Below are positions 12,049 to 44,599 of a stretch of 64,000 nucleotides of DNA, in pieces. The stretch is from Candidatus Nitrosocosmicus franklandus (GTDB lineage: Archaea; Thermoproteota; Nitrososphaeria; Nitrososphaerales; Nitrososphaeraceae): the NCBI RefSeq assembly GCF_900696045.1, contig NZ_LR216287.1:1717854-1781853 (forward strand). Reading direction: 5' to 3'. Position numbers and translations under genes: made by a program. Each line of letters opens with the position of its first letter. Position 1 is the first letter of the stretch. The notes under the pieces are model-generated. The model was not told the origin of the DNA. It ran no database searches and saw only the letters and a program-made list of their open reading frames with translations.

Positions 12049-13305
12049 CTAATCCCACATCTTTTCTTTAAAGGTTAATTTCTTGTTAAACAGAAAATTA
12101 CTAACAGAAGCTATGCTAACTCCTAGCAATAGGGAAATATCATAAGACATTCCAGATTCGCTTAGGAGGTATATAGACAAGAATTGTATTAGTATCCCAA
12201 GCGAGCTACATCCTATAAACATTCCATATTGCTTTAAAAATCTAGTTGCTTCAATATTTCTGTCCTCAAATGTCCAGAATTTGTTTAACAAGAAATTTGT
12301 AGTAACGGAAAATGCAATACCTGCGGATGTCGCCTGCAAATATCCAAAGTTTCCAAGGACTCCGTTTGACAAAAGCATTGACACCATATAGTTTAAAATA
12401 AATCCGCTAGCTCCTACTGTGTAAAATCTGGCTGCCTTGGAAATAAACCTGACAGACTGTCTCTTCTCGGGTTGAGATTTTTGCCTCTTTGACTTTCTTC
12501 CGTATCTATATAGCTTCCATATAGCTTTCAAATAATCAAGAATTGTTGCAAGATCAAGTTTGCTTTGGCCGTGTTTTCTATCTTTAAAAGTGTAAGGAAT
12601 CTCTTTTACACAAACTTCTCCCTTCTTTTTTATCAGTATTTCAAGTAGTATTTTAAAACCATTTGTATTAAATTCTACACCTTCTAAAGCGTGTTTCGGA
12701 AAAGCAAAAAAACCAGACATTGGATCATAAACATTCTTTAAGGATAGACTATGTCTTGCTATGAAATTTGCACCTGTGCTAAGCAATAGCCTCCTAAAGG
12801 ACATTCCTTTTACTGCCCCTCCTCGGACATATCTAGAACCTATTATAATACAATTGGGCTGATTTTTTATCTCACTTATCATCCTATTTACTACTTCGGG
12901 GGGGTGCGAAAAATCAGCATCCATAATTAAAACATTCTTTCCTTTTGATGAACGAATTCCGTTCACCACCGCAGCTATTAATCCTGCTTTTTTCTTTCTA
13001 TGTATTACCCTTATCGATATGTTCTTTTTCAAGCTGTTTAGAGATCGTGATTCTGTGTTGATGTCATAACTATGAAGATTCTTTTTTTCCTCTATGTATT
13101 TTTCAACAATATGTCCAGTCCCATCGGGGGAACTGTCGTCAACTATGATGATTTCTACATTAGTTTCTGTGGGAATATGCACTTGGATTTGATTTAACAA
13201 ATCCTTAATATTCATAGATTCATTGAATGTAGGGATAACAATGGAGATGAATTTTTGATCATCTGTGGTTTGCTGCATTGTTTCATTAACATTTAGCATA
13301 GTCAC
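12049..13305 (-). CDS. GT2 dolichyl-phosphate-sugar synthase fused to a GtrA membrane domain
   Basis: Residues 20-260 form a GT-A glycosyltransferase of the DPM1 type: IVIPTFNES at the nucleotide pocket, VDDSSPDGTG, the DxD-type DADFSHPPE, and GSRYVRGGA. Residues 290-415 are a GtrA-type four-helix membrane domain (SAGIAFSVTTNFLLNKFWTF and ASVSNFLFNKKLTF). The protein should transfer a sugar (mannose or glucose) from a nucleotide sugar to a polyprenyl phosphate on the cytoplasmic face, and the GtrA part may help flip the product. This would feed the GT-C enzymes at 13658 and 17768, which use such lipid-linked sugars. Same strand as the 13658 gene, with a 350 bp gap. Confidence 0.9.
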   Translation of the reverse strand: MTMLNVNETMQQTTDDQKFISIVIPTFNESMNIKDLLNQIQVHIPTETNVEIIIVDDSSPDGTGHIVEKYIEEKKNLHSYDINTESRSLNSLKKNISIRVIHRKKKAGLIAAVVNGIRSSKGKNVLIMDADFSHPPEVVNRMISEIKNQPNCIIIGSRYVRGGAVKGMSFRRLLLSTGANFIARHSLSLKNVYDPMSGFFAFPKHALEGVEFNTNGFKILLEILIKKKGEVCVKEIPYTFKDRKHGQSKLDLATILDYLKAIWKLYRYGRKSKRQKSQPEKRQSVRFISKAARFYTVGASGFILNYMVSMLLSNGVLGNFGYLQATSAGIAFSVTTNFLLNKFWTFEDRNIEATRFLKQYGMFIGCSSLGILIQFLSIYLLSESGMSYDISLLLGVSIASVSNFLFNKKLTFKEKMWD

Positions 13306-13657: not shown

Positions 13658-16654
13658 CTAATTTCCATCTTGGTTTGGAACTATTCTATAGAGATTTCCG
13701 TACAAGTGCGAAAGAACGTAGAGATATCCGTCAGGTCCTTCTCTAATGTCCGTAGCTACTCCGAATCCTTGTCCAAAGACTAGATCATCTAATTCTTTGT
13801 TATTGTTAGCTACCTTATCTAATAACGGCCCATCAAGGTCCAACCTAGTTCTGTCCTCGGTAAGGTCAAAATTATACAGATAGTTGTTATTGTAGTCTGC
13901 AGCAAAGAGATCGTATTGATACTGACTTCCCAAAGTGTCGTTCTTAAGAAACTCTAAAGCCGTTACTCCTACAGACATGTTCCAGGCAAATTCTGGACTA
14001 CTATAATGTCCCTTGTCAGCAAAGGTTTCCAAATTGTTTGGAATTGTTACCATTTCTTTTCCAAAGTATCCTCTCTCTGGTGGTAGTGGTTGCGCATTCT
14101 CTACAGGCCACCATCCCATTACTCTTAACCATCCGCTATTAAATCCTGGTTCTACGATGTTTATCTCATCACCATACCCAGGACCATTCTCTGAATCCCA
14201 TAGCTTGTTGGTGAGTGGATCAAAAGCAAGCCCAAATCCATTTCTTATTCCGTATGCAAAATATTTGTTTAATGGACTGTGATCTGCTAATAGGCCTGTA
14301 GTTTTATTTTCTCCAGTTAGAATTGGATCTCCAAACGGGGTAACGCGCAATATACCACCTCTACCATCAGGCGGATGACCCGTGGGAACATTCGATGATT
14401 CAGCGTTTACAACGCTATCTTCAAAAGTGCCGGTACAGAATTCATCTTCCCAACAGCTATCGCCGTCTCCAACAAGTACGTAAATGTTGTCATCCGGACC
14501 TACCTTTATAACCCCACCGTTATGGTCCGCTCCCGGACCAACAGGGATATCTAATATGAGATTTGGATTGATTAACTCATTACCTGTCCATTCATACCTG
14601 TAAACTCTATTACCCAGAGGATTCGTTTTTTCATCACATACAGTAGCTCCTGAACATACATCGTTTCCATCTTTTAGAGCTTGGGTGTAGAAAATATAAA
14701 CATAGGTTCTTTCGCCAGTCGAATTGTCTAATATTTGCTTGGCAACGTCAATTCCAAGCAATCCTCTTTCTATTTTGTTTGCAACATTGAGGTCCAAAAC
14801 GGGTTCGTCCAAAAGACTTCCATTAACTATTCTCTTAATTGTACCGTTCATTTTCTCCAAAACTAAAATATCATTCTTTCCTACAAAGGCCATGGTCGTA
14901 GGATAGCTCAGCCCACTTGCTACCAACTCTACTCTCAGATTCGGATCGGTAACTGTGGGCATAGGAATCTCAGGTGTAGTCAAACTCGAGTTTGTTTTCT
15001 CCGATGATTCATTTGAAGGGGATTGCGCAAAAGCCAATTGACTGTTTGTGTAATTAGATCTAACTTCAATTAGCCCTAGTTGTCTGCTTTCCTTCATATT
15101 GGTAAACGGATATTGGTTTGTATCATAGGTTCTGGTAGGTATATCGACGAATAGGCCAGTCTTGTCAGAATCATGGTAGATTTTTCTAATTTCATCCAAA
15201 TGTTTACCTTGAACAGAATAATCGAATATATCATGTTTTAATTGACTGTCTACGATCATCAAAACATTGTCAGTTTTTAGAGGTCCTTTTAAATATCGTT
15301 CTGGAAATACGTCCTTTACATAATTTTCCTTATCATGAACATACATGGGAATCCATGAGAAACTTCGAATCCAATGTTGACCCATTAATGTAATATTTTC
15401 CTCGAGATCTGGGTTAGTGGTGATATAATTCGAGATAAATGCAGATAATTCAAAAAAAACTTCATTGGTGTTGACACTGATTAACATCCAAGTGCTAATT
15501 AATCCAAATAATCCTATTATCCCTACTACTATAGTTATCGGTATTGTAGTTTGAGATATTGTATTACCGCCAATTTTTTTATTTTTCAAAGATATCTTAC
15601 TACTGACTGTTACTATTATAAACCCTGCTGCTATTGCCATTATGGGTAACAATTCTATAAAATGAAAGTACTTTACAATTCCACCGATAAAATATATAAA
15701 TAGAAAATAAGGTATGGTCCAGAGAATAAAGATAATATCCCTTTTTACCAAAACGAGTGCTATTCCTCCACCTAATCCTAAAATGGTCAAGACAGGGTCG
15801 GATAAAAACAAGAAGGTAATTGTGTCGTTAAAGTTCCTCTCTCCTCTCTCCACTTGATATAAAATTCCTTTTATTCCATTCTCTAATTCTCCAATATGCG
15901 TTACATAGGCAGGCCAAATTAGTGGGATTAGAAATACCGGAACTAGCCAAATACCTAATTTTTTCAGACTCTTATTATTTTTATAAATTAAATATCCAAT
16001 TAATGGAATAAATGTAATTGTGGGTATCTTTGTAAATATGGATAGTCCTAGTGTAACCCCTGAAATTATTAGCCACATCAAGGCTACCGAGTTGTTATCT
16101 GTTCTTTTTTTGTATACTTTTCCTGAATAAAGTGCCAAGAGTATGGATGACAGAAGGAATGGGAGTAATATTGTGTCTAACAAAATCATTTTTAGCATCC
16201 AGGTGAGTGGCATTACCCCAAATAGAATTGCTGCAACGAATCCTACCCTTCGTCCTAGCCAAATTTCTCCAATCTTATATACCAAGAGAGTATCAATTAC
16301 CGCAAGAATTCCCATCAATATTCTGGGAGTGGTATACAATTGTTCAATTGATTCGGGAGTTTCGGTAGATTGATGGGATTCGTATTTGTAGTCTGATATC
16401 TTTAATATTGCAGCTAGAAATATTTGTCCAAAATAAGGATGATCATAGGGATGATCGTAAATTGCGCTTGATTCTTGTGGACCAAACCCTTCCATAACCT
16501 GAAGAGCTCGTCTCATATAATGATCCTCGTCGATATATATAGTGGGAAATCCTGTTGGATTCCACAGATGAGTAAATGAAGATAATGCAATAGGTATTAG
16601 GAGGATCACAATGTATTTGATCCTGCTTTTTTGACGATCCGTTAATTTAACCAA
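13658..16654 (-). CDS. GT-C membrane glycosyltransferase fused to a secreted glucose/sorbosone-dehydrogenase-type propeller
   Basis: This 998-residue protein has two parts. Residues 1-530 are a PMT_2/GT39-like GT-C enzyme with many membrane helices and the acidic first-loop motif IYIDEDHYMRRA, then DHPYFGQIF. Residues 560-998 form a PQQ-type glucose/sorbosone-dehydrogenase propeller with ADHNGGVIKVGPDDNIYVL, YGIRNGFGLAFDP and GYGDEINIVEPGFNSGW. The linker (residues 530-555) keeps LAFAQSPSNESS, which looks like an old signal-peptide cleavage site. That hints that two genes merged. The GT half shares its end (IEVRSN) with the shorter GT-C at 17768. The predicted topology puts the propeller outside. 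Confidence 0.85.
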   Translation of the reverse strand: MVKLTDRQKSRIKYIVILLIPIALSSFTHLWNPTGFPTIYIDEDHYMRRALQVMEGFGPQESSAIYDHPYDHPYFGQIFLAAILKISDYKYESHQSTETPESIEQLYTTPRILMGILAVIDTLLVYKIGEIWLGRRVGFVAAILFGVMPLTWMLKMILLDTILLPFLLSSILLALYSGKVYKKRTDNNSVALMWLIISGVTLGLSIFTKIPTITFIPLIGYLIYKNNKSLKKLGIWLVPVFLIPLIWPAYVTHIGELENGIKGILYQVERGERNFNDTITFLFLSDPVLTILGLGGGIALVLVKRDIIFILWTIPYFLFIYFIGGIVKYFHFIELLPIMAIAAGFIIVTVSSKISLKNKKIGGNTISQTTIPITIVVGIIGLFGLISTWMLISVNTNEVFFELSAFISNYITTNPDLEENITLMGQHWIRSFSWIPMYVHDKENYVKDVFPERYLKGPLKTDNVLMIVDSQLKHDIFDYSVQGKHLDEIRKIYHDSDKTGLFVDIPTRTYDTNQYPFTNMKESRQLGLIEVRSNYTNSQLAFAQSPSNESSEKTNSSLTTPEIPMPTVTDPNLRVELVASGLSYPTTMAFVGKNDILVLEKMNGTIKRIVNGSLLDEPVLDLNVANKIERGLLGIDVAKQILDNSTGERTYVYIFYTQALKDGNDVCSGATVCDEKTNPLGNRVYRYEWTGNELINPNLILDIPVGPGADHNGGVIKVGPDDNIYVLVGDGDSCWEDEFCTGTFEDSVVNAESSNVPTGHPPDGRGGILRVTPFGDPILTGENKTTGLLADHSPLNKYFAYGIRNGFGLAFDPLTNKLWDSENGPGYGDEINIVEPGFNSGWLRVMGWWPVENAQPLPPERGYFGKEMVTIPNNLETFADKGHYSSPEFAWNMSVGVTALEFLKNDTLGSQYQYDLFAADYNNNYLYNFDLTEDRTRLDLDGPLLDKVANNNKELDDLVFGQGFGVATDIREGPDGYLYVLSHLYGNLYRIVPNQDGN

Positions 16655-16888
16655 TTATCAATCATCTTCCGTTCGTTAATGTGAAAAAGATGGCACCTTT
16701 AATCGTGATTCAACTTCCAAATAAATATATAATTGAAATTATCATTTTTGAGATTGTTACTATGATTTATATATTATAATAATTCGATTAGTATACTTTT
16801 CAAACTAATTTTTGATCTCGAAACTATTGTTCTTTAAACAGAAAATGATGTGTAGATATAAATATAACATCTATCTGGGTACCAAAAC

Positions 16889-17656
16889 ATGTCGGATTTT
16901 ATACCTGATAAAAAGAAATGCTACTTATTAGTATTGTTAAATTTTCTTATGATTGTTATCATCTTTGTTAATTTAGATTGTGTCTTTTCCCAGGATGTAT
17001 TAGGTGGCAGTAGTGGCAATATCAGTGCCAACTTGGACTTTGCCGATAATAAGTCAACACTATCTAATCTAGACACCTTAGAGCCTATTTCGTCTAATAT
17101 ATCAGTTCATGTCGAACCAAAGGATACTGGAACTCTATACTTGTCTGCAATTATTTCCGATGGAAAAGTAGTATATACTCGTGACCTTGACGATGAATTA
17201 TTCCCTTTTCAGACCACAAATTGGTACCAACTAGTTACCCTCACTCCAAATTATACGGGGACGTTGGAAAATTCTGGTTTAAATTTCGATAATCTGATTG
17301 TTGGTCAACTACAAGATTTCGATAACTTTGATGAACTGTTGGAACAGGCTCGGATATACTCAGATGTTCCTATCAACGAAACTTTTATTCTTGATCTTCC
17401 TAATAAGGATGTTAGTTTTATGCAGCTTCAGGCATCCTTTTTGGATGGAATTACTGGAATATATTATGGTCTATTTGATGGAAATCAGCAAAGAGATAAA
17501 TCTGAGATCAATCTTCGCCTTAATCCTGAATCATCTCTGAAAATCTTGGAATCTGATTCAGCAATAGTTATAAAAACAAATCCACAACTGTATAATGTTA
17601 CAAATACTCTGGTTTGCCACGATGTCTATAAACTAGGATATGAAAAATGCCAATAA
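16889..17656 (+). CDS. Exported uncharacterised protein (255 aa)
   Basis: A hydrophobic N-terminal segment (residues 11-34, ending VFSQD) is followed by a beta-rich exterior domain with many NxS/T sites such as GNISAN, SNISVH and NETF, and a C-terminal Cys pair (LVCHDVYKLGYEKCQ). An alternating sheet pattern, e.g. GTLYLSAIISDGKVVYTRD, suggests an immunoglobulin-like or sandwich fold. Family not recognised. It stands head-to-head with the GT-C fusion gene and may share its promoter region (16655-16888). It may be a substrate or partner of the glycosyltransferases around it. Confidence 0.65.
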   Translation: MSDFIPDKKKCYLLVLLNFLMIVIIFVNLDCVFSQDVLGGSSGNISANLDFADNKSTLSNLDTLEPISSNISVHVEPKDTGTLYLSAIISDGKVVYTRDLDDELFPFQTTNWYQLVTLTPNYTGTLENSGLNFDNLIVGQLQDFDNFDELLEQARIYSDVPINETFILDLPNKDVSFMQLQASFLDGITGIYYGLFDGNQQRDKSEINLRLNPESSLKILESDSAIVIKTNPQLYNVTNTLVCHDVYKLGYEKCQ

Positions 17657-17767: not shown

Positions 17768-19417
17768 CTAGTTTGATCTTATCTCTATAGGGCCCCCTCC
17801 TAAATTAAATCTCATGCTTGTATAAGGATATTGAAACCTGTCATAATCATTGCCATTTCCAGTAAAGTACTTTGAGGTATTTAATCCATCAAATGCTTTG
17901 TATAGTTCATCGGCAGTTGCTAGATTTTGATTCCAAGATTTGTTTCTTGACTCCAAGTTATTTGTTAGATAATCTCTAAAATACCTGTCTAATACCAAAA
18001 TCACGTCACTTCCATTCTCGATATTGTTATTTTCACTATAGCTGTAGAATGTATTTTCATAAAGATAAATGAATTTATAGATCCATGAATAGATAGGACT
18101 AGCAATAATTATGGTAGACTTGTTATCTTCTCTCATTCCTTTATCATAACCTGATTTTTTCTGAAGACCATTATATTGTAGTGAATTATCCGATATAGTC
18201 ATATCTGAATAAGACTTGTTTTTCAACGTGGCATTATCTTTGATCAATATTGTATTAATGTAAGACATGGCTTCATATTGAAATGAAGCTACGTTAGTTG
18301 AGATCAAAGCAAATGTGGAAAAAAACCCAAAAACTATTATCAACGAAGGTATCATAATGGTTATGGCTTTATATTTCGTAACCAGTTTGATTATCCTTTC
18401 AATCAATACTCCTGCCGTTATGCAAAGAAATCCAAATATTGGGATAAAATAAAACCAATTGACGTAGGAAACAAAGAAGGTAAAAAAGGCAATAAATGGC
18501 ACTATTCCTAATATTAGAAATGAATCTCTTTTGATAATCGCCAAAGCAATTCCAAAAATACCAAGAGTTAGAATTATAGGATCTATCAAAAAAATATCAT
18601 AGATGGAGTCAACAATAGAACCATAGTGCCTTTCTATTTGTGAAGTTAATCCTGTTATCCATTGTTGATATTCGCCTTTGGATATAGCGTCAAGTGGCCA
18701 AACTAATGGGATAATTATGACCGGTGTTAGGAATAAAACTACATCGGATATTTTTTTATTATTTTTATAGGTGTAAAAAGTCAGAAAAGGCATCATGGTT
18801 ACTAATGGAGCTTTTGTAAATATCGCTAATCCTAGTAATACTCCGGCTATGAAGATTAAGCCTTGTGAAATTTTTGGCTTTTGGTGATTCATAGAATTCA
18901 CATACACAACTATTAAAACTGAACTTAACAGAAGGGGATACAGGAGAGATTCTAAATAAATCCTCCGTAATGCCCAGGTAAAAGGCATAACTGAAAATAG
19001 TAAGGCTGAAATAATTGCAGCATTGCGACCGTAGCGAAGCTTAGTTATAGCATAAATAAGAAGGGTATCTAAAACTGCAAAAATCCCAATCATGATTCGC
19101 GGTATTGCATACGAAGAATAAACTGATGATTGATTCTGTATCTCCGGATCTATTATAGCAGGATAATTTATTACATACAGCATACTAGCCAAGAAAATGG
19201 GGCCAAAGTACGGATGGTCATAAAAAGAAGTAGACCAAGCGGTATTTCCCATAGTTAAAAAATGGAGGGACCTAAACAAGTAGGTCCCCTCATCAACATG
19301 AATACTTGGAAAGCCTAGTGGATTCCATAAATGAACAAATGATGTTATCAAGAGTATTAAAATGATTATAAAAAACTTATTTTCGTAGACTAATGTTATC
19401 TTGCCTAACAAGGACAT
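17768..19417 (-). CDS. GT-C (PMT_2/GT39-like) membrane glycosyltransferase
   Basis: The 549-residue membrane protein shares the plan of the fusion protein at 13658: HLWNPLGFPSIHVDEGTYLF (acidic catalytic-type loop after the first helix), DHPYFGPIFLAS, then about ten hydrophobic helices and a C-terminal exterior domain ending GPIEIRSN. GT-C enzymes of this group move a sugar from a polyprenyl-phosphate carrier to a protein, lipid or glycan outside the membrane. Here there is no sugar-dehydrogenase half, so this is the unfused paralogue. The start MSLLGKITLVYENKF fits a cytoplasmic N-terminus. Confidence 0.85.
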   Translation of the reverse strand: MSLLGKITLVYENKFFIIILILLITSFVHLWNPLGFPSIHVDEGTYLFRSLHFLTMGNTAWSTSFYDHPYFGPIFLASMLYVINYPAIIDPEIQNQSSVYSSYAIPRIMIGIFAVLDTLLIYAITKLRYGRNAAIISALLFSVMPFTWALRRIYLESLLYPLLLSSVLIVVYVNSMNHQKPKISQGLIFIAGVLLGLAIFTKAPLVTMMPFLTFYTYKNNKKISDVVLFLTPVIIIPLVWPLDAISKGEYQQWITGLTSQIERHYGSIVDSIYDIFLIDPIILTLGIFGIALAIIKRDSFLILGIVPFIAFFTFFVSYVNWFYFIPIFGFLCITAGVLIERIIKLVTKYKAITIMIPSLIIVFGFFSTFALISTNVASFQYEAMSYINTILIKDNATLKNKSYSDMTISDNSLQYNGLQKKSGYDKGMREDNKSTIIIASPIYSWIYKFIYLYENTFYSYSENNNIENGSDVILVLDRYFRDYLTNNLESRNKSWNQNLATADELYKAFDGLNTSKYFTGNGNDYDRFQYPYTSMRFNLGGGPIEIRSN

Positions 19418-19603: not shown

Positions 19604-20056
19604 ATGAAAAATAAGAATGCGATTTCGAAAAATAAGATAGGTATTCTATCTATGATGATGATTACAGCTGTCACATTATTATTCATGGCTTCACCTACCT
19701 CAATATATGCACAAGAAAGTGAAGCAGCATCAGCTGAATCAACAAGTAGAGAACCAATTGCAATCATTAACGAAATTAGGACACTACTGACTCAGGCAAA
19801 TAATCAATATGCAGGTCAAGACTTTGTAGGAGCAGAAGCATCAGTGCAGACAGCCTATTTAGATCATTATGAATATTTGGAAGGTCCATTGGCCGCACTT
19901 GATCCAGAATTAATGGAAGCAACTGAAATCTTGATAAGAGAGACATTGATTGGTGCAATTCAAGATAGAGCTCCATTAACCGAGGTTCAGAGTCTTATCA
20001 ATAACGTAAATACCAACTTGGACCAAGCTGAAGTTTTATTCCAACAACAACCTTAA
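19604..20056 (+). CDS. Exported helical protein, paralogue of the gene at 6696
   Basis: A signal segment (ITAVTLLFMASPTSIYAQ, residues about 20-37) is followed by a helical domain with NQYAGQDFVGAEASVQTAYL, DHYEYLEGPLAALDPEL and AEVLFQQQP. It is strongly similar to the protein at 6696-7136 and carries the same iron-permease-associated-like pattern; no metal ligand is obvious. The ATG at 19604 is preceded by an AT-rich box. A run of nine T directly after the stop codon (20057-20065) could terminate transcription. Confidence 0.75.
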   Translation: MKNKNAISKNKIGILSMMMITAVTLLFMASPTSIYAQESEAASAESTSREPIAIINEIRTLLTQANNQYAGQDFVGAEASVQTAYLDHYEYLEGPLAALDPELMEATEILIRETLIGAIQDRAPLTEVQSLINNVNTNLDQAEVLFQQQP

Positions 20057-20065: not shown

Positions 20066-20185
20066 GTAGAGAAATATCTGAACTTTAAAGTAACTGTTTT
20101 TTATAGTAACGATAATTTCTACCTGCCTGTAGAAATGTTTGCTGTTATGTAGTAATTGATTTCAAATCGGAGGATCAGCAGTTCC

Positions 20186-20197
20186 TTTATATTAAAT
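20186..20197 (+). promoter_or_regulatory. TATA-like box for the kelch gene at 20216
   Basis: The TTTATATTAAATA tract centres about 25 nt upstream of the ATG at 20216. This spacing predicts a leaderless transcript and favours that ATG over the earlier TTG at 20156. Confidence 0.45.
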
Positions 20198-20215
20198 AAC
20201 AAAAAATTTGTACCT

Positions 20216-21220
20216 ATGAACTATATTTCAAATGTATATTTGACTGTTCTTTTATGTTTTTTTACGATATCAATAGTTTGCATTCTAAATCCATTTCAAT
20301 TTTCGTTTTCACAAATAAATTCAGACACTTACTGGACTAGGGGAGCTGACATGCCTGTTGTGACGACTGAAGCAACAGCTGCAAGAATTGGTGACGGAAT
20401 TTATGTAATAGGGGGATATGATGAAGAGGGCGAAGGAGTTGGAATGGTTGAAATGTATAATGCAACAACTGATACATGGGCCGAAGATATATCTCAACTA
20501 CCCCTTCCTCTTCATCATGTTTCTGCAGCTTCATTTGATGGCAAGTTATATGTTGCAGGTGGTTATACTGATGATTGGACTGCTAGTGATAGACTTTTCA
20601 TATATGACCCTACAACGAATCAATGGACTCAAGCAAATCCTATGCCCACACCAAGGGGGTATCCTAGTGCAGAATTTGTCAATGGAACCTTATACGTAAT
20701 AGGTGGCGATGGTGGCGAAGGGTATGAAAGAGCTTTGACTGCCAACGAGGCATATGACCCGACAACAAATCAGTGGACGGTCAAATCACCAATGCCAACA
20801 GCTAGACACCATGCAGCCTCTGCGGTTGTTGATGGCGAAATTTATGTGATAGGTGGTAGAATAGGTGAAGAATTAAACAATGTAGATCTTATAGAGAAAT
20901 ATAACCCAGTTTCTGATAGCTGGACTATTGATCTTGAACCGATGCCCTCAAAACGAAGCGGAAATGCTGCTACCTCATTGAATGGATATATTTATGTACT
21001 TGGAGGCGAACAAAATCAAGGCACATTCAATGACAATGAACGTTATGATCCAAAAACTGATACTTGGTCAAAGGAGCTGCCTATGATGAACGCTAGACAT
21101 GGATTGGGTGTGGTCTCTTTTGATAATAAGATTTATGCTATTGGTGGTGGACCTGAGCGCGGATTCTTTACTTCTGGGATAAATGAGATATATCATATGT
21201 CTAACGATACTGTTTCTTAA
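20216..21220 (+). CDS. Secreted kelch-repeat beta-propeller protein 1
   Basis: Start at MNYISNVYLT gives a signal segment (ending FSFSQ). About six kelch blades follow, recognised by repeats such as IGDGIYVIGGYDE, DGKLYVAGGYTD, NGTLYVIGGDGG and DGEIYVIGGRIG with MPTARHHAASAV. Kelch propellers bind ligands or act as sugar oxidases in some families; no copper or flavin-binding domain is fused here, so a binding role is more likely. It is closely related in sequence to the kelch gene at 25369. Extracellular. An upstream TTG at 20156 would add 20 residues and spoil the signal. Confidence 0.85.
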   Translation: MNYISNVYLTVLLCFFTISIVCILNPFQFSFSQINSDTYWTRGADMPVVTTEATAARIGDGIYVIGGYDEEGEGVGMVEMYNATTDTWAEDISQLPLPLHHVSAASFDGKLYVAGGYTDDWTASDRLFIYDPTTNQWTQANPMPTPRGYPSAEFVNGTLYVIGGDGGEGYERALTANEAYDPTTNQWTVKSPMPTARHHAASAVVDGEIYVIGGRIGEELNNVDLIEKYNPVSDSWTIDLEPMPSKRSGNAATSLNGYIYVLGGEQNQGTFNDNERYDPKTDTWSKELPMMNARHGLGVVSFDNKIYAIGGGPERGFFTSGINEIYHMSNDTVS

Positions 21221-21803: not shown

Positions 21804-22829
21804 TCAGGTTCCTGCCGTATTTTTATCGTTACCAGGAATTAGTATTTCATTTATACTTAAAGCTTGAAGGCCTTTGTGTTGACCTCCAAATACATATATT
21901 TTATCGTTATATGCAGCTACTGCTAAACCGGATCTATCAACTTTCATATCTGGTTCTACCGACCATTTATTGGTAATCGGATCGTATCTTTCAACGTTAA
22001 TATTGGCACCATCTGCCATCTGACCTCCAAATACATATATTTCCCCATTTAAAGATTCTGCTGCAAATCCGCTCCTTCTTATGGGCATAGGATCCATTGA
22101 AGTCCATTTGTCTGTTTTTGGATCATACATCATGTTATCATCAAGATTTGTCAGAGCGTCGTTTATTTCATTGGGAACCCCGTTACCAAATAATCTCCCA
22201 CCCAAAACGTAGATCTTGTCATCTACAACTGCAGAGGAGGCATGATGTTTGGGACCATTTTTCTCTGGCATTGGACTCTTTTCCACCCAAGTATCGTTTT
22301 CTATATGATATGCAAAATTGGTTGCTACAGGATTGTGATCAAAATCTAAACCTGAGATTGCATAAATAGTTCCGTTGATAACTTCTGCAACATGGCAGCA
22401 TCGCGGATCTGGTAACGGTGTTCCTTCAGTCCATTCGTTAGTTGCAGGATCATAGATTAACACCTTGTCTGTTGTGATCTTGTCTTGCAAAAATCCTCCT
22501 ATTACGTAGATTTTGTCATTGTAAACGACCGAAGGTGCGTGATCCAAACTATAAGGCAATGGAGCACCACTAGTCCATTTGTCTGTATTTGGATCGTAGA
22601 TTTCTACAATATTCACTGCTCCATCGGCTCTATAGTCTGCTCCACCTATCACGTATATTTTATCATCAACCACTGCTGCAGTTATTTCAGTTCTATTTGT
22701 AGGCATTTCTTTTCCTATTGTCCAGGTTGAGTTTTCAACTCCCTCTGTATTCCCTGGTGGTGATAATAATAATGACACAAACCCAATAGTAACTATTAGT
22801 GGAAAAATTAGTCTGATCCCTAACCTCAT
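21804..22829 (-). CDS. Secreted kelch-repeat beta-propeller protein 2
   Basis: Signal segment MRLGIRLIFPLIVTIGFVSL, then about six kelch blades: DDKIYVIGGADY, NDKIYVIGGFLQ, NGTIYAISGLDFD, DDKIYVLGGRLFG, NGEIYVFGGQMADG and NDKIYVFGGQHKG. It is more distant from kelch genes 1 and 3 than they are from each other. The alternating strand order of the three genes suggests separate transcription. Likely an extracellular ligand- or glycan-binding protein. Confidence 0.85.
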   Translation of the reverse strand: MRLGIRLIFPLIVTIGFVSLLLSPPGNTEGVENSTWTIGKEMPTNRTEITAAVVDDKIYVIGGADYRADGAVNIVEIYDPNTDKWTSGAPLPYSLDHAPSVVYNDKIYVIGGFLQDKITTDKVLIYDPATNEWTEGTPLPDPRCCHVAEVINGTIYAISGLDFDHNPVATNFAYHIENDTWVEKSPMPEKNGPKHHASSAVVDDKIYVLGGRLFGNGVPNEINDALTNLDDNMMYDPKTDKWTSMDPMPIRRSGFAAESLNGEIYVFGGQMADGANINVERYDPITNKWSVEPDMKVDRSGLAVAAYNDKIYVFGGQHKGLQALSINEILIPGNDKNTAGT

Positions 22830-22943: not shown

Positions 22944-23471
22944 CTAGGATCCATTTACTATTACTTCCGGAGTGATATTCTTTAGTTCAAGTGTTTCAGG
23001 TGACAATGCTCTTATCGATGAGATCTGATCATTGAGCCACCCGAGAGTTTGAACATTGTGTTTTCCTGGTCCTAGTATCATACAATTGCCTGCATAGCTT
23101 TCATGCTCACACACCTCTACCATATGTCCGCTCGTATTGTTTTCGTCTATTGATATTATTAGACTACTTATGGAATCGTGAAACTGACCACCTATGAACG
23201 GAGTGTTTTGATCTATAACGGTGCTATTTCCAGTAAAATTCTTGTGAATAAAGACTTGAGCTGCAAAATGACTGGTTGTATTTGCAACTGCTGTATTATT
23301 TGCAACTGCTGTATTATTTGCAACGAACTCATACAAACTATTATCCTCTGGGTTTATCTCAGATTGACTAGCAATACTCGCTTGTGCCTTTTCTATATGA
23401 GGTATAGTTAAGCCGGTTAATAAGGTTCCAATCATGAAAATCAAAATAACAAGACCACATCTATTTTGCAT
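22944..23471 (-). CDS. Secreted beta/gamma-crystallin-domain protein
   Basis: From the Met at 23471 the protein opens with a signal segment. It has an Ala/Val/Asn repeat (an 18-bp unit at 23281-23316), then two crystallin Greek-key halves: AAQVFIHKNFTGNSTVI followed by FHDSISSLII, and EVCEHESYAGNCMIL followed by LNDQISSIRAL. The paired HDSISS/NDQISS segments correspond to the Ca2+-binding (N/D)(N/D)xx(S/T)S motif of microbial beta/gamma-crystallins; the first half has His in place of the first Asn/Asp. Such domains often stabilise extracellular matrix or cell surface and bind calcium. An earlier TTG at 23498 is less likely. Confidence 0.8.
   Translation of the reverse strand: MQNRCGLVILIFMIGTLLTGLTIPHIEKAQASIASQSEINPEDNSLYEFVANNTAVANNTAVANTTSHFAAQVFIHKNFTGNSTVIDQNTPFIGGQFHDSISSLIISIDENNTSGHMVEVCEHESYAGNCMILGPGKHNVQTLGWLNDQISSIRALSPETLELKNITPEVIVNGS
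23281..23324. repeat. 18-bp in-frame tandem repeat
   Basis: Two identical 18-bp units plus a partial third encode VANNTAVANNTA-type residues in the crystallin-domain gene. Copy number could vary without breaking the frame. Confidence 0.7.
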
Positions 23472-23619
23472 ATCAAAGAAAATTTTAGGGGGAGGCAATA
23501 AAAACTTGTATCAGATTCTATGTTTTGAGATGATACTACCTAAGTAAATTCTGAAAATTGAATAAAGGGTTTACATATGATACCGTGTTTTACTCTATCA
23601 AAAAATAATATGCTTTTCT

Positions 23620-24843
23620 TTATATTTCACTCGCATTGAACTGGTGTAATAATTTAGGACTGTCTATTACTAATTCGTTAAATTTATCCATGGAAATTGT
23701 TTTAATGGGATCCATTAGGTGATTATTGGAAATTGCACCGGTTCTTGAGCTTGTTTGATTAGTTTTTTGTTCCAAAACAAGTAAGTGATTTTTGATATCT
23801 CTGGTTATATCTGTGTTACAAATTTTACTATTATTTATTGCACTGAGAGATTCTTGAAGCATGCCTATGATGTGATCATTCCCCTTATCTTCGTGAAAAT
23901 GAGGATTTCTAGTTTCTATTTGAAATATTTCTACACTATCTTTATGAAGTCTTGAAGATTCTTTAATTATTCCTCCAAAATTTTCTAATATGTTAATTAG
24001 TTCATAAGGTTCCACTGAATATCCGCTTGCAAATTGCATGTTCTCAGCAAGGCTCATGGATAGTGCATGTTCTCCGGCGTTTCCTGTAGTAATTATATCT
24101 GTCTCATAACCTGTAATATAAGAAATTAAATCATTAAGATATTTGTTGCTATGTTCAGATACACGTCCCCATCTAGGAAAATAAACTTTGTTATTCGCTA
24201 CTTTTGGTTTCGATCGCCAACATATTCGTATGTTACTCATGCGTGATTGCGACATTGCAAACCCTGATGCAAATATTTTTACATACTCATTGACTGCACC
24301 AGGAAAATAATTATCACTATCAATAAATCCAACATACTCTTTTTCTTGCATCTTTGCTAATAAGATCCCAATTACCATTCCTTCTGCTTTGCCACGCCTA
24401 ACTTGGCTGTGTTGATCTAGAATTGAAGTATAATTTAGTTTGTGAAATATTCGACTAAGATTAGGATCTCGTTGATGTATAATGGAAATTCTTTTATTAG
24501 AAAACTGAGAAAATTGCTTTACCATTTCTACTTCCATCGCATATCGGTCAACGGGTGTTCTTTGACTATTAGACACGATAATAATTAGACATTCATTAGG
24601 AATGCCGCTCAAAACCCCTTCCAATAAACTTAATTTTTCGTTCTTTACCGGAATAACTACTGCCATCTTAGTACATTTTTTTGAGAGCTTTCTATTGTCA
24701 AATGCTATTGTAGACGTATTATTATTACGCTGATTATTAGAATTCACTACGTTTCCTGAATCTATTTCATAAATTTTTTGAAGTGAGTGGATTTTTATTG
24801 AGCCTATAGTTTCAGTATATTTGGGTGGAAAGTCTAATCTCAT
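23620..24843 (-). CDS. mpgS: Mannosyl-3-phosphoglycerate synthase (GT55)
   Basis: Recognisable GT55 features: MAVVIPVKNEKLSLLEGVL at the GDP-mannose site, IIIVSNSQRTPVDRYA, IIHQRDPNLSRIF, RRGKAEGMVIGILLAKM, the metal-binding YVGFIDSDNYFPGAV, and ITTGNAGEHALSMSLAENM. The enzyme joins GDP-mannose to 3-phosphoglycerate, and the product is dephosphorylated to the compatible solute mannosylglycerate. I see no dedicated phosphatase nearby. The first 60 residues and a Ser/Asn-rich segment at 30-50 extend the core. Cytoplasmic. Low-salt or desiccation-related regulation is possible but not visible. Confidence 0.9.
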   Translation of the reverse strand: MRLDFPPKYTETIGSIKIHSLQKIYEIDSGNVVNSNNQRNNNTSTIAFDNRKLSKKCTKMAVVIPVKNEKLSLLEGVLSGIPNECLIIIVSNSQRTPVDRYAMEVEMVKQFSQFSNKRISIIHQRDPNLSRIFHKLNYTSILDQHSQVRRGKAEGMVIGILLAKMQEKEYVGFIDSDNYFPGAVNEYVKIFASGFAMSQSRMSNIRICWRSKPKVANNKVYFPRWGRVSEHSNKYLNDLISYITGYETDIITTGNAGEHALSMSLAENMQFASGYSVEPYELINILENFGGIIKESSRLHKDSVEIFQIETRNPHFHEDKGNDHIIGMLQESLSAINNSKICNTDITRDIKNHLLVLEQKTNQTSSRTGAISNNHLMDPIKTISMDKFNELVIDSPKLLHQFNASEI

Positions 24844-26789: not shown

Positions 26790-26856
26790 AATAGTTGACT
26801 ATTCATTTAAATCGAGGTTCATTTCGCATTTGTCGTTAGAAACCTTAATTAAATTA

Positions 26857-26864
26857 AAATATTT
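26857..26864 (+). promoter_or_regulatory. TATA-like box for the gene at 26887
   Basis: AAAATATT centres about 26 nt before the ATG at 26887, predicting a leaderless transcript and supporting that start rather than the TTG at 26830. Confidence 0.4.
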
Positions 26865-26886
26865 CATACTATTGTTAGACTACTCC

Positions 26887-28701
26887 ATGTTTGTTAGACT
26901 TAAGCCGTTAATAGCCTTTTTCGCTATATCTTTGATTCTCCTTTCTTCTATTTCCTCCTCTTATGTTCAAATTTCCTTTGGTGCATATGCAAAAGCACCA
27001 TTGTCCCCCTATGGCCCGACAGTAAACGATGATAGTCTTACTGTTGAAAAACTAGTTGATGGCTTAGCATTTCCAACTAGCATGGCATTTCTGGGCCCTA
27101 ACGATATTCTTGTGACTGAAAAAAATACAGGCCAGGTAAAAAGAATTACCAATGGATATTTGGCTCCACAACCAGTGCTTGACGTACCTGTAGCAAATGC
27201 CATAGAAAGAGGGTTGTTAGGAATTGCTATATCAAAACATCCCGATGGAAAAACATACGTTTTTCTTTCATACACAGAATCTGGTGATGGTGTCGATGGT
27301 AGCGATGTTGAACGATTTGTGGACCCATTAGGTAATCGACTATATAGATACGAGTTTGTCGATGGCAGGTTGATTAATCCTGTATTATTATTAGATTTAA
27401 CTGCAACTCCTCCAAATGGTAGAGCAGAACACAATGGAGGTAAGGTCCTAATCGGTCCTGACAATAATGTTTACTTTATGGTCGGAGAAGTTGGCGGACA
27501 TAGAACTCAGGCTCAGAATATTCTTTTTGGTCCACCACCTAATGGTTTGGGAGGGGTATTGAGAGTTACCCAGGATGGTGAGATTGTTGATCCTAATGAA
27601 CCTATTTTCGGCGAAGGCTTACCGCTGAATGTATATTATGCAATGGGTATTCGAAATAGCTTTGGAATGGACTTTGATCCATTGACTGGAAACCTTTGGG
27701 ATACTGAAAATGGGCCAGATACTGGTGATGAAATTAATCTAGTGTTTCCAGGATTTAACAGTGGATGGGTTCAAGTTCAAGGCTATATAGAGGATGATCT
27801 TCTTGAAAATGAGGTTTTTGATGAATCTGCTCTGGTATCTTTTGGAGAAAGCCAATATGCGGATCCAAAATTTGTATGGGAATGGCCCGCGGGTTTGACT
27901 GCTTTGAAATTCCTGAATTCTCACAGATTAGGCGATGAATATGCGAATAACATGTTTGTAGGCGATATTAATAACGGGTTATTATATAGATTTACACTCA
28001 ATGAAGCCAGGGATGCAATTTTCATAAACGATACATATGTGGGTGATATAGAAGCACTTCAAGATAACAAGATCGAAGATCCGAAAGAAAATCAACCTCT
28101 AATATTTGGTCAAGGTTTTGGTGGTATAACCGATCTTCAAGTTGGGCCAGACGGTTATCTGTATGTATTGAGCTATACCGGATCCCTCTTTAGAATATTG
28201 CCAATATCTGATAGTGTTATACCTCGATCTCCGGCTGTAGTAGCTGTTGAACAAGAAGCAGTACGTAACCAGTCTGTTCCTGCGGTAATATTGGGAATAG
28301 ATGGTGACGACTCTTATTCACCAAATCCAATAGAGATCGAAGTAGGTCAAACAATAACTTGGTATAATGGAGATACCATATCTCATACCGTAACTTCTGG
28401 ACGAGATGGTGATGCTGATGAGGGTAGCTTATTTGATTCGGATGCTATAATACCTAATCATTCTTATTCCCTTACCTTTATCACTCCTGGAGAATACCCA
28501 TATTACTGTATATATCATCCTACCATGGTAGGTGATGTCGTCGTTGACGAAGTTGGATCGGGTTCATCTACATCTGATGATGAAGACTCCTCAAGCGATG
28601 ATGAAGACTCCTCAAGCGATGATGAAGACTCCTCAAGCGATGATGAAGACTCCTCAAGCGATGATGAAGACTCCTCAAGCGATGATGAAGACGAAGCATA
28701 A
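26887..28701 (+). CDS. Secreted glucose/sorbosone-dehydrogenase propeller with C-terminal cupredoxin and acidic repeat tail
   Basis: Signal segment MFVRLKPLIAFFAISLILL; residues about 35-450 form a PQQ-type sugar-dehydrogenase propeller (EHNGGKVLIGPDNNVYFMV, YAMGIRNSFGMDFDP, TGDEINLVFPGFNSGW). Residues 470-560 are a plastocyanin-like cupredoxin with type-1 copper ligands visible as SHTV, YYCIYHP and TMVG (His, Cys, His, Met). The tail is five perfect repeats of SDDEDSS. A single polypeptide thus joins a sugar oxidase fold to a copper electron carrier, so electrons could pass to the membrane chain (inference). An upstream TTG at 26830 would add an atypical extension. Confidence 0.85.
   Translation: MFVRLKPLIAFFAISLILLSSISSSYVQISFGAYAKAPLSPYGPTVNDDSLTVEKLVDGLAFPTSMAFLGPNDILVTEKNTGQVKRITNGYLAPQPVLDVPVANAIERGLLGIAISKHPDGKTYVFLSYTESGDGVDGSDVERFVDPLGNRLYRYEFVDGRLINPVLLLDLTATPPNGRAEHNGGKVLIGPDNNVYFMVGEVGGHRTQAQNILFGPPPNGLGGVLRVTQDGEIVDPNEPIFGEGLPLNVYYAMGIRNSFGMDFDPLTGNLWDTENGPDTGDEINLVFPGFNSGWVQVQGYIEDDLLENEVFDESALVSFGESQYADPKFVWEWPAGLTALKFLNSHRLGDEYANNMFVGDINNGLLYRFTLNEARDAIFINDTYVGDIEALQDNKIEDPKENQPLIFGQGFGGITDLQVGPDGYLYVLSYTGSLFRILPISDSVIPRSPAVVAVEQEAVRNQSVPAVILGIDGDDSYSPNPIEIEVGQTITWYNGDTISHTVTSGRDGDADEGSLFDSDAIIPNHSYSLTFITPGEYPYYCIYHPTMVGDVVVDEVGSGSSTSDDEDSSSDDEDSSSDDEDSSSDDEDSSSDDEDSSSDDEDEA
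28576..28680 (+). repeat. Five tandem 21-bp repeats encoding an acidic SDDEDSS tail
   Basis: Five identical 21-bp units run in frame at the end of the sugar-dehydrogenase/cupredoxin gene, then a partial unit leads to the stop. Perfect identity implies recent expansion or homogenisation. The antisense strand carries an open frame only because of the repeat. Confidence 0.9.
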
Positions 28702-43081: not shown

Positions 43082-44599
43082 TTAATTTTCCGCAGCAGAT
43101 ATTCTATATATTCTGCCATCAAAGTATGTCAGTATATATAGATTTCCATCCGGTCCCGTTTCTATGTCCGTAATTCTTCCTTCAAAATTCTTTGCAAAAA
43201 TGATTTTTTCTCGTTCTTTCTGATTATCTGCTACTAAATCCTGTAGTCCCTTTTCATTTTCTTTTTCACCTGCTAACAAGCCTTTATGTATGTCAATACC
43301 CGATCTGGTTGAATTTACTTTAAATAGATACAAATTTCCATTATTAATGTCTCCTGCAAATATATCATTCTCCAAATCTTTGCCAAGCTTTGAGGATTCT
43401 AAAAACTCAATGTCGGTCACACCGACTGGAATACGCCAACTAAATTCGGGATCTGAATAATGTGAACCATTCAACATGATCAAATCAGCGATTAGAGTAT
43501 TGTTGTTTCTGCTTATTGGACCCATTATCTTGTACCACCCACTGTTTAATCCTGGTTCAACAAGGTTAATTTCATCATAGTTGTTCTCACCATTTTCAGT
43601 ATTCCATAATTTCCCTGTTACCGGATCAGTGTCCAAACCGAAACCATTTCTAATTCCATATGAATAATAGAATTTTGCCGAATCTAGAATGGTGTCATTA
43701 TGAAAATATGAGTAAAACGGATTGTCTGTAGGGATCAATGATTCGCCTAAAGGATTAATTCGGAATATAACAGATGAATTATTAGGAACGGTAATTGATT
43801 TATTTTTTCCACTTGGATAATTTTGTAATGTATTGTTTATGGTGGCTAGGTCTCCAATAACTATATACAGATATCCTTGTCTATCAAAATGCATTTTTCC
43901 ACCATTATGATATGGGGTAGGTCCACTTGGTAATTCTAACAAAAGCTTGGGATTAGATAAATTGCCTTGACCTGGACCAAGCCAATCATATTCATAAACT
44001 CTATTCTGGATGGTATAGGTATTATCCTGATCAGTGTTGGTGGTTTTATCATTCTTGAATTGTGAAACTGTTTTTTCTGTGACATATAAATATACTTTAT
44101 AGAGAATTTCATTGGTGGAATTAGTTACCAATGATGTAGAGGCGTTTATGAAAGTATTCTGCGATCTATTGATGTGAACGTTCGTGTTCCCAAATGGAAT
44201 CCTGTCATTGGGCACAGACTTGTCCATGGCAGCTGCAATTCCTAGCAGTCCCCTTTCTTCTTCAATTGATATGTTGTTTATAGTATAAATGGGCTCTTTC
44301 TGTAATGTGCCATTTGATATTAGACGAACATTTCCACTATCTTTTTCTGTTACTAATAAAGTGTTATTATCTACAAAAGTCATACTTGTAGGATGTGATA
44401 AACCTTCTGCAATCAGTTTTACCTCAATCCTATTTTCGTAATTGGGATTTATTTCTATAGAATCATTGCTCTGTAAAGGTATCATAAATAATTTAATAAT
44501 ACTCGAATAATTGAAATTAGTTAAAACATCAACAACAGCAGCAACAACAAAAAGTATGGTGAATATGGTTACAGATATGATCGCGACAAATCTCTTCAT
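43082..44599 (-). CDS. Secreted or anchored glucose/sorbosone-dehydrogenase propeller
   Basis: Hydrophobic N-terminus (MKRFVAIISVTIFTILFVVAA) then the propeller: GLSHPTSMTFVDNNTLLVTE, YHNGGKMHFDRQGYLYIVIG, YGIRNGFGLDTDPVTGKLW, NYDEINLVEPGLNSGWYKI and ITDIETGPDGNLYIL. Compared with the protein at 26887 it has no cupredoxin domain and no acidic tail, and it carries an Asn/Ser/Thr-rich insert near residues 120-190 with glycosylation-type sites. PQQ-dependent sugar oxidation outside the cell is the family role; cofactor use here is not proven. Third member of the family in the window. Confidence 0.85.
   Translation of the reverse strand: MKRFVAIISVTIFTILFVVAAVVDVLTNFNYSSIIKLFMIPLQSNDSIEINPNYENRIEVKLIAEGLSHPTSMTFVDNNTLLVTEKDSGNVRLISNGTLQKEPIYTINNISIEEERGLLGIAAAMDKSVPNDRIPFGNTNVHINRSQNTFINASTSLVTNSTNEILYKVYLYVTEKTVSQFKNDKTTNTDQDNTYTIQNRVYEYDWLGPGQGNLSNPKLLLELPSGPTPYHNGGKMHFDRQGYLYIVIGDLATINNTLQNYPSGKNKSITVPNNSSVIFRINPLGESLIPTDNPFYSYFHNDTILDSAKFYYSYGIRNGFGLDTDPVTGKLWNTENGENNYDEINLVEPGLNSGWYKIMGPISRNNNTLIADLIMLNGSHYSDPEFSWRIPVGVTDIEFLESSKLGKDLENDIFAGDINNGNLYLFKVNSTRSGIDIHKGLLAGEKENEKGLQDLVADNQKEREKIIFAKNFEGRITDIETGPDGNLYILTYFDGRIYRISAAEN

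Follow-up and report, generated by a model that had tools for sequence, protein, structure and literature searches.

A GT-C glycosyltransferase joined to a GSDH-type beta-propeller in one chain in archaea of the genus Nitrosocosmicus

In sGDH, Lys377, Arg406 and Arg408 are the residues that anchor the PQQ carboxylates. Roles are assigned to the PQQ-site residues here by the numbering of sGDH, which PMC6881789 discusses. Fungal enzymes of family AA12 use PQQ although they have no equivalents of the bacterial Lys377 and Arg408; they keep one C-terminal arginine (Arg621) and add His539 and His560 (PMC6881789, PMC4133262). Nitrosocosmicus is without an S-layer protein, is rich in glycosyltransferases and has been proposed to carry a glycocalyx (PMC6776761, PMC11559005). 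Here we describe a protein in which a membrane glycosyltransferase and a GSDH propeller form a single chain; the architecture is new and its parts are known. No description of the fusion was found in the literature searched, which took in few subscription journals.

The window analysed is a stretch of 64,000 nucleotides from the closed genome (2,836,447 bp) of Candidatus Nitrosocosmicus franklandus. Within it, a minus-strand frame of 998 codons (13658-16654) runs uninterrupted from a TTG start, and its product is composed of the following parts.

15053..16654, minus strand: GT-C (PMT_2-type) glycosyltransferase half, residues 1-534 (Pfam PMT_2/PMT; Foldseek AglB/ArnT/Pmt4; dN/dS)
16526-16531, minus strand: DE motif D42/E43 in the first outer loop of the GT-C half (sequence)
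14948..15052, minus strand: variable linker of 35 residues (535-569) with NxS/T sequons (alignment; low pLDDT at 538-562)
15023..15034, minus strand: A-F-A-Q, residues 541-544, resembling the c-region of a signal peptide (LAFAQ is residues 540-544)
13661..14947, minus strand: GSDH six-bladed propeller half, residues 570-998 (Pfam GSDH; YliI residue comparison; Foldseek 2ism/3a9g/1cru)

The fusion of a GT-C to a GSDH propeller, proposed in the initial annotation, is borne out by the open frame, the Pfam domains, the structural model and Foldseek. Pfam PMT_2 matches residues 112-248 (E 5.8e-8, 33.5 bits against a cut-off of 26.1), PMT also matches the GT-C half (E 5.9e-8), and GSDH (PF07995) covers residues 582-988 (E 1.9e-29, 103.5 bits against a cut-off of 25). 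Besides passing the Pfam cut-off, the GT-C half has the multi-TM fold and the claimed DE loop motif of its family, D42/E43 being located in the first outer loop and present in every full-length orthologue. The full-length AlphaFold2 model, built on 24 sequences (pLDDT 72, pTM 0.54) and not fixing the relative orientation of the domains, has membrane helices as far as about residue 392, followed by a small alpha/beta domain that ends near residue 534, a disordered linker and a beta-propeller, and Foldseek relates it to sGDH/Asd structures and to AglB, ArnT and Pmt4. Modelled alone, the propeller reached a pTM of 0.84 and matched 2ISM (TMt 0.81), 3A9G and sGDH (1cru). The fusion scored 18.6 bits against the archaeal STT3/AglB family TIGR04154 (cut-off 450), with no WWDYG in the sequence, and 81.3 bits against the sGDH-like subfamily TIGR03606 (below the cut-off of 434.55), and no MIR domain match was found in the protein. 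In a genome-wide profile search the fusion and a second GT-C (GT-C2, 17768-19417) were the only PMT_2 matches.

The surroundings of the gene include a conserved island, and the features referred to below are these.

12049..13305, minus strand: GT2 plus GtrA/DPMS-TM protein (Pfam GT2 1.4e-28, GtrA 6.2e-19; synteny)
16889..17656, plus strand: 255-aa protein of the conserved island, with an N-terminal hydrophobic stretch and no Pfam match
17768..19417, minus strand: GT-C2, second and unfused GT-C, 549 aa, ending in IEIRSN-stop (PMT_2 2e-8)
19604-20056, plus strand: 150-aa protein of the conserved island
20156-21220, plus strand: Kelch-like propeller 1 of the conserved island (named from visible repeats)
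21804-22829, minus strand: Kelch-like propeller 2 of the conserved island (named from visible repeats)
22944-23498, minus strand: crystallin-like protein of the conserved island
23620-24843, minus strand: mannosyl-3-phosphoglycerate synthase, flanking the island
43082-44599: other propeller of the window

In carriers of the fusion the gene order is Kelch, Kelch, 150-aa protein, GT-C2, 255-aa protein, fusion, GT2-GtrA and PAC2, with a small rearrangement of the island order in genomes G009 and G010. The GT2-GtrA gene adjoins the locus throughout the genus, and its product is likely a polyprenyl-phosphate-hexose synthase that supplies the GT-C. The unfused GT-C at 17768 and the further propellers of the window (26830-28701 and 43082-44599) are as first annotated, with the addition that the propeller at 26830-28701 is fused to a plastocyanin/amicyanin-like cupredoxin; the PQQ anchors are absent there too. 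Comparable exchanges were seen in other genera. A related GT-C (L046 3297-5978, genome G046) has a right-handed beta-helix (PF13229/NosD-like) attached at the corresponding C-terminal point, and two further genera have same-subfamily propellers joined to a metallophosphoesterase (L049 2742-5060 and L050 177-2411). By these beta-helix, metallophosphoesterase and cupredoxin fusions, the GT-C and the propeller both take part in repeated swaps of surface domains.

Using a sample of one genome per species, many of them MAGs, we found the fusion in 10 of 15 Nitrosocosmicus species genomes, and the suspicion that it might be limited to this assembly is thus false. Seven copies are intact (G000, G001, G005, G009, G010, G013 and G014), one is cut by a contig end (G006) and two are disrupted, by an in-frame TGA within the GT-C half in G012 and by two 1-bp indels (+1 and -1) in the propeller behind a full GT-C in G003. 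In the latter genome two nearly identical fusion propellers lie on opposite strands with about 7 kb between them (L048, 6264-9236 plus and 15983-17638 minus). The second copy is an intact propeller whose GT-C has shrunk to about one TM segment; the pair may reflect gene conversion or an assembly error, and misassembly of this near-identical repeat may have produced the indels. In G002 and G004 the syntenic site was located and the fusion was not found. Since both genomes nest among carriers in the tree of the neighbouring GT2-GtrA, and G004 still has 60 aa of the propeller at the syntenic position, flanked by GT2-GtrA and mannosyl-3-phosphoglycerate synthase, these absences are losses. G008 and G011 are also without the fusion and have an unfused GT-C adjoining their GT2-GtrA; in G007 none was seen, and as the contig begins inside the neighbouring gene its absence there is unproven.

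Outside Nitrosocosmicus, 55 genomes representing 11 genera of the same family gave separate GT-C and GSDH matches and no fusion (E 1e-60), so a spread of the fusion through the family was rejected; a search of 300 genomes of the class used E 1e-130, a threshold that distant fusions would escape. In another genus, G066 contains a frameshifted and truncated propeller (L045 3473-4494) that is 73% identical to the fusion propeller and adjoins remnants of the 255-aa and 150-aa island proteins, for which transfer and decay of the island, or contamination, are possible explanations. Both halves of the fusion are under purifying selection: in computable pairs, dN/dS spans 0.10-0.17 across the GT-C half and 0.03-0.12 across the propeller half; the linker drifts faster than both (0.29 in the one more divergent computable pair). 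Because synonymous sites are saturated between G000 and G001, the conservation between these two genomes is meaningful. An assembly artefact was rejected, as seven independent assemblies share this junction in intact form and dN/dS is 0.03-0.17 on both halves.

The alignment locates the join precisely. Most unfused GT-Cs of other genera, and GT-C2 of the window, stop exactly at the join position with the pattern RxN(Y)-stop (IEIRSN-stop, EIRKNY-stop, DIRSNY-stop, TIRANY-stop), and the fusions continue from I(or V)EVRSN through a variable stretch with (A/V)(F/Y)A(L/Q), kept in 10 of the 10 fusion-derived copies examined, into the propeller. In free propellers the corresponding A-x-A motif ends the signal peptide, reading INAQ in L047 and GAYAK in the gene at 26830 of the window. 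The gene merger suggested at the outset is thereby well supported and so, given the GT-C stop position at the join and the motif of the free propellers at the same place, is the view that LAFAQ is left over from the cleavage region of a signal peptide. The linker A-x-A (15023-15034) is conserved despite its distance from any membrane helix. In trees, all fusion GT-C halves form one clade (support 100/100), the fusion propellers form a clade that includes the free truncated G066 propeller (44% of columns filled, a weak placement), and both halves have their nearest outside relative in one genome of another genus, G052 (support 94/91 and 91/95). By these trees the fusion arose once; its origin would fall inside the radiation of most Nitrosocosmicus or shortly before it, and the sequence lost would have comprised the stop codon of the GT-C, the spacer and, from the signal peptide of the propeller, the start and the hydrophobic core. 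In G062 the GT-C and propeller genes lie side by side on the same strand, about 135 bp apart, the sole such instance seen, which illustrates the unfused state and is not a shown ancestor. A tandem of the two genes as a common ancestral operon was rejected: in eight well-assembled genomes of other genera one of seven GT-Cs has an adjoining propeller, and the nearest relatives of both halves are from G052, not G062.

The anchor residues of nine fusion-type propellers and 16 free propellers of the archaeal subfamily were compared with E. coli YliI as the reference. Fusion residues H711, R804 and N805 align with YliI H147, R214 and N215, E830 corresponds to the metal-loop Glu240, and all are retained in every fusion. 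YliI K314, R341 and R343 are replaced by Asn (N923), Val/Ile (V966) and Thr (T968) in all nine fusion-type propellers, replacements with which the profile alignment of the fusion to 2G8S agrees, and Gln82 is Glu in every fusion. The initial annotation had considered that the propeller might lack its cofactor residues in all homologues; for the fusions this holds for the bacterial-type PQQ anchors and fails for His147, Arg214, Asn215 and Glu240. In the free propellers both C-terminal arginines are replaced (16/16); the lysine site still has K in three of them and N, H or T in the others. By contrast, own_L003, a further GSDH of this genome (G000:C1:1849215-1849937, minus strand), keeps the full bacterial-type PQQ ligand set and, by its residues, is the best candidate for a true PQQ enzyme among the genome's GSDHs compared. 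As for anchors of the AA12 type, the fusion has, at the sequence level, no Arg at the C-terminal anchor positions and no His in D920-N924, and R630 could be an analogue of AA12 Arg273. The pocket has conserved residues of its own, D920, T968 and Arg630 beside E629, and the D920 and T968 replacements together with R630 suggest a pocket for a different ligand. Judged by these residues, the fusion propeller is not a canonical PQQ dehydrogenase; the replaced anchors make PQQ use less likely, yet AA12 enzymes bind PQQ without Lys377/Arg408 equivalents. PqqB had no match in the genome and the PqqE model gave 70.9 bits (cut-off 381); these searches give no firm absence of PQQ biosynthesis, and scavenging of PQQ is possible.

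The reading that we favour, with roughly an even chance of being right, is that of an extracytoplasmic polyprenyl-phosphate-hexose GT-C fed by GT2-GtrA, with the propeller as an accessory module for binding the acceptor or glycan. The chain would act as a single membrane protein at the outer face of the cell membrane: the adjacent GT2-GtrA would make the polyprenyl-phosphate hexose donor, the GT-C half would move the hexose, probably mannose, to a surface glycan or glycoprotein, and the propeller, formerly a separate exported protein, would now be tethered beside the active site and most likely bind or position the glycan or protein acceptor, a role comparable to that of the MIR domain of protein O-mannosyltransferases. 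In favour of a binding module, the PQQ anchors are replaced in all fusions, while own_L003 of the same genome keeps them; the beta-helix attached at the same point of the related GT-C (L046) argues for an outer accessory module, and HHIP, a GSDH-fold binder and not an enzyme, is a precedent for such a role. On the other side, the retained His147, Arg214, Asn215 and metal-loop residues exceed the needs of a pure binder, AA12 demonstrates PQQ use without Lys377/Arg408 equivalents (PMC6881789, PMC4133262), and the model leaves the relative domain orientation free (pTM 0.54). It is unlikely that the propeller is instead an active oxidoreductase, with a non-canonical, AA12-like PQQ site or another cofactor site and electrons passing to periplasmic carriers, its substrate being either the sugar just added to the surface or a free aldose. 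The invariance or near-invariance of His711, Arg804, Asn805 and the metal loop, the pocket's own conserved residues, the survival of PQQ binding in AA12 and the PQQ dependence assumed for the Nitrosocosmicus GSDH expansion (PMC6657660) are consistent with oxidation; the replacement of all three of the Lys314, Arg341 and Arg343 equivalents, AA12's Arg621 and His539/His560 without visible counterparts at these places, and the PqqB and PqqE results speak against it. That one chain takes a sugar from a lipid donor, attaches it and goes on to oxidise the very sugar attached, via PQQ or another cofactor in a pocket of non-bacterial type, is very improbable, and the original suggestion of transfer and oxidation is unsupported as a canonical PQQ reaction. 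Binding of the acceptor glycan, the other role suggested at the outset, is possible.

Two further explanations concern the joining itself. The fusion might just anchor a surface propeller to the membrane, the halves working independently, and the second G003 copy, with its intact propeller behind about one TM segment beside a copy with a frameshifted propeller, agrees with such tethering, as do the cupredoxin and metallophosphoesterase fusions of same-subfamily propellers. The G003 indels may, however, be assembly errors, purifying selection acts strongly on the GT-C half, whose DE motif is intact, and the fusion has persisted from before the split of G009 and G010, so we regard this as rather unlikely. 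Alternatively, the chain could be a polyprotein-like precursor, cut at A-x-A so that the propeller is released outside and the GT-C stays in the membrane. Although the motif is kept in 10/10 copies despite saturated synonymous sites (in more distant copies) and a drifting linker, and is the cleavage region of free propellers, no hydrophobic core precedes it and the last predicted TM helix is about 150 residues away; A-x-A in the fusion is therefore not a normal signal-peptidase substrate, and cleavage is distinctly improbable.

The fusion bears on the cell cover of these archaea. The S-layer protein of other ammonia oxidisers is absent in Nitrosocosmicus; the GT-C-propeller fusion, which is conserved, under selection and one of two PMT_2 proteins found in the genome, is a concrete candidate for a maker of this cover. 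The residue comparison also questions a published assumption: sugar oxidation with PQQ and a gain in reducing power have been ascribed to the expanded Nitrosocosmicus GSDHs, most of which lack the usual anchors. If, on the contrary, transferred sugar were oxidised, the building of the glycocalyx would be tied to respiratory electron transport in an ammonia oxidiser.

Compared with the sGDH/Asd proteins (A. calcoaceticus sGDH, E. coli YliI, Thermus 2ISM), the fusion shares the six-bladed fold, the catalytic His, the Arg-Asn pair and the GP/DE metal loop; it differs in having other residues in place of the three PQQ anchors (the Lys and the two C-terminal Arg), in its GT-C tether and in a TIGR03606 score below cut-off. 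With PMT_2/ArnT and protein O-mannosyltransferases it has in common the DE motif, the multi-TM fold, an adjacent DPMS-like synthase and a small outer C-terminal domain, whereas it adds a C-terminal beta-propeller and has no MIR match. The propeller of HHIP, a binding protein and not a dehydrogenase, shares the GSDH fold (profile E 2.8e-9 plus fold match), but HHIP is an animal protein of about 16% identity without a GT-C. The Nitrosocosmicus GSDHs described as PQQ-dependent (PMC6657660) belong to the same subfamily and genus as the fusion propeller; the fusion is not described there, and neither C-terminal Arg anchor is present in any of the 16 free subfamily members compared.
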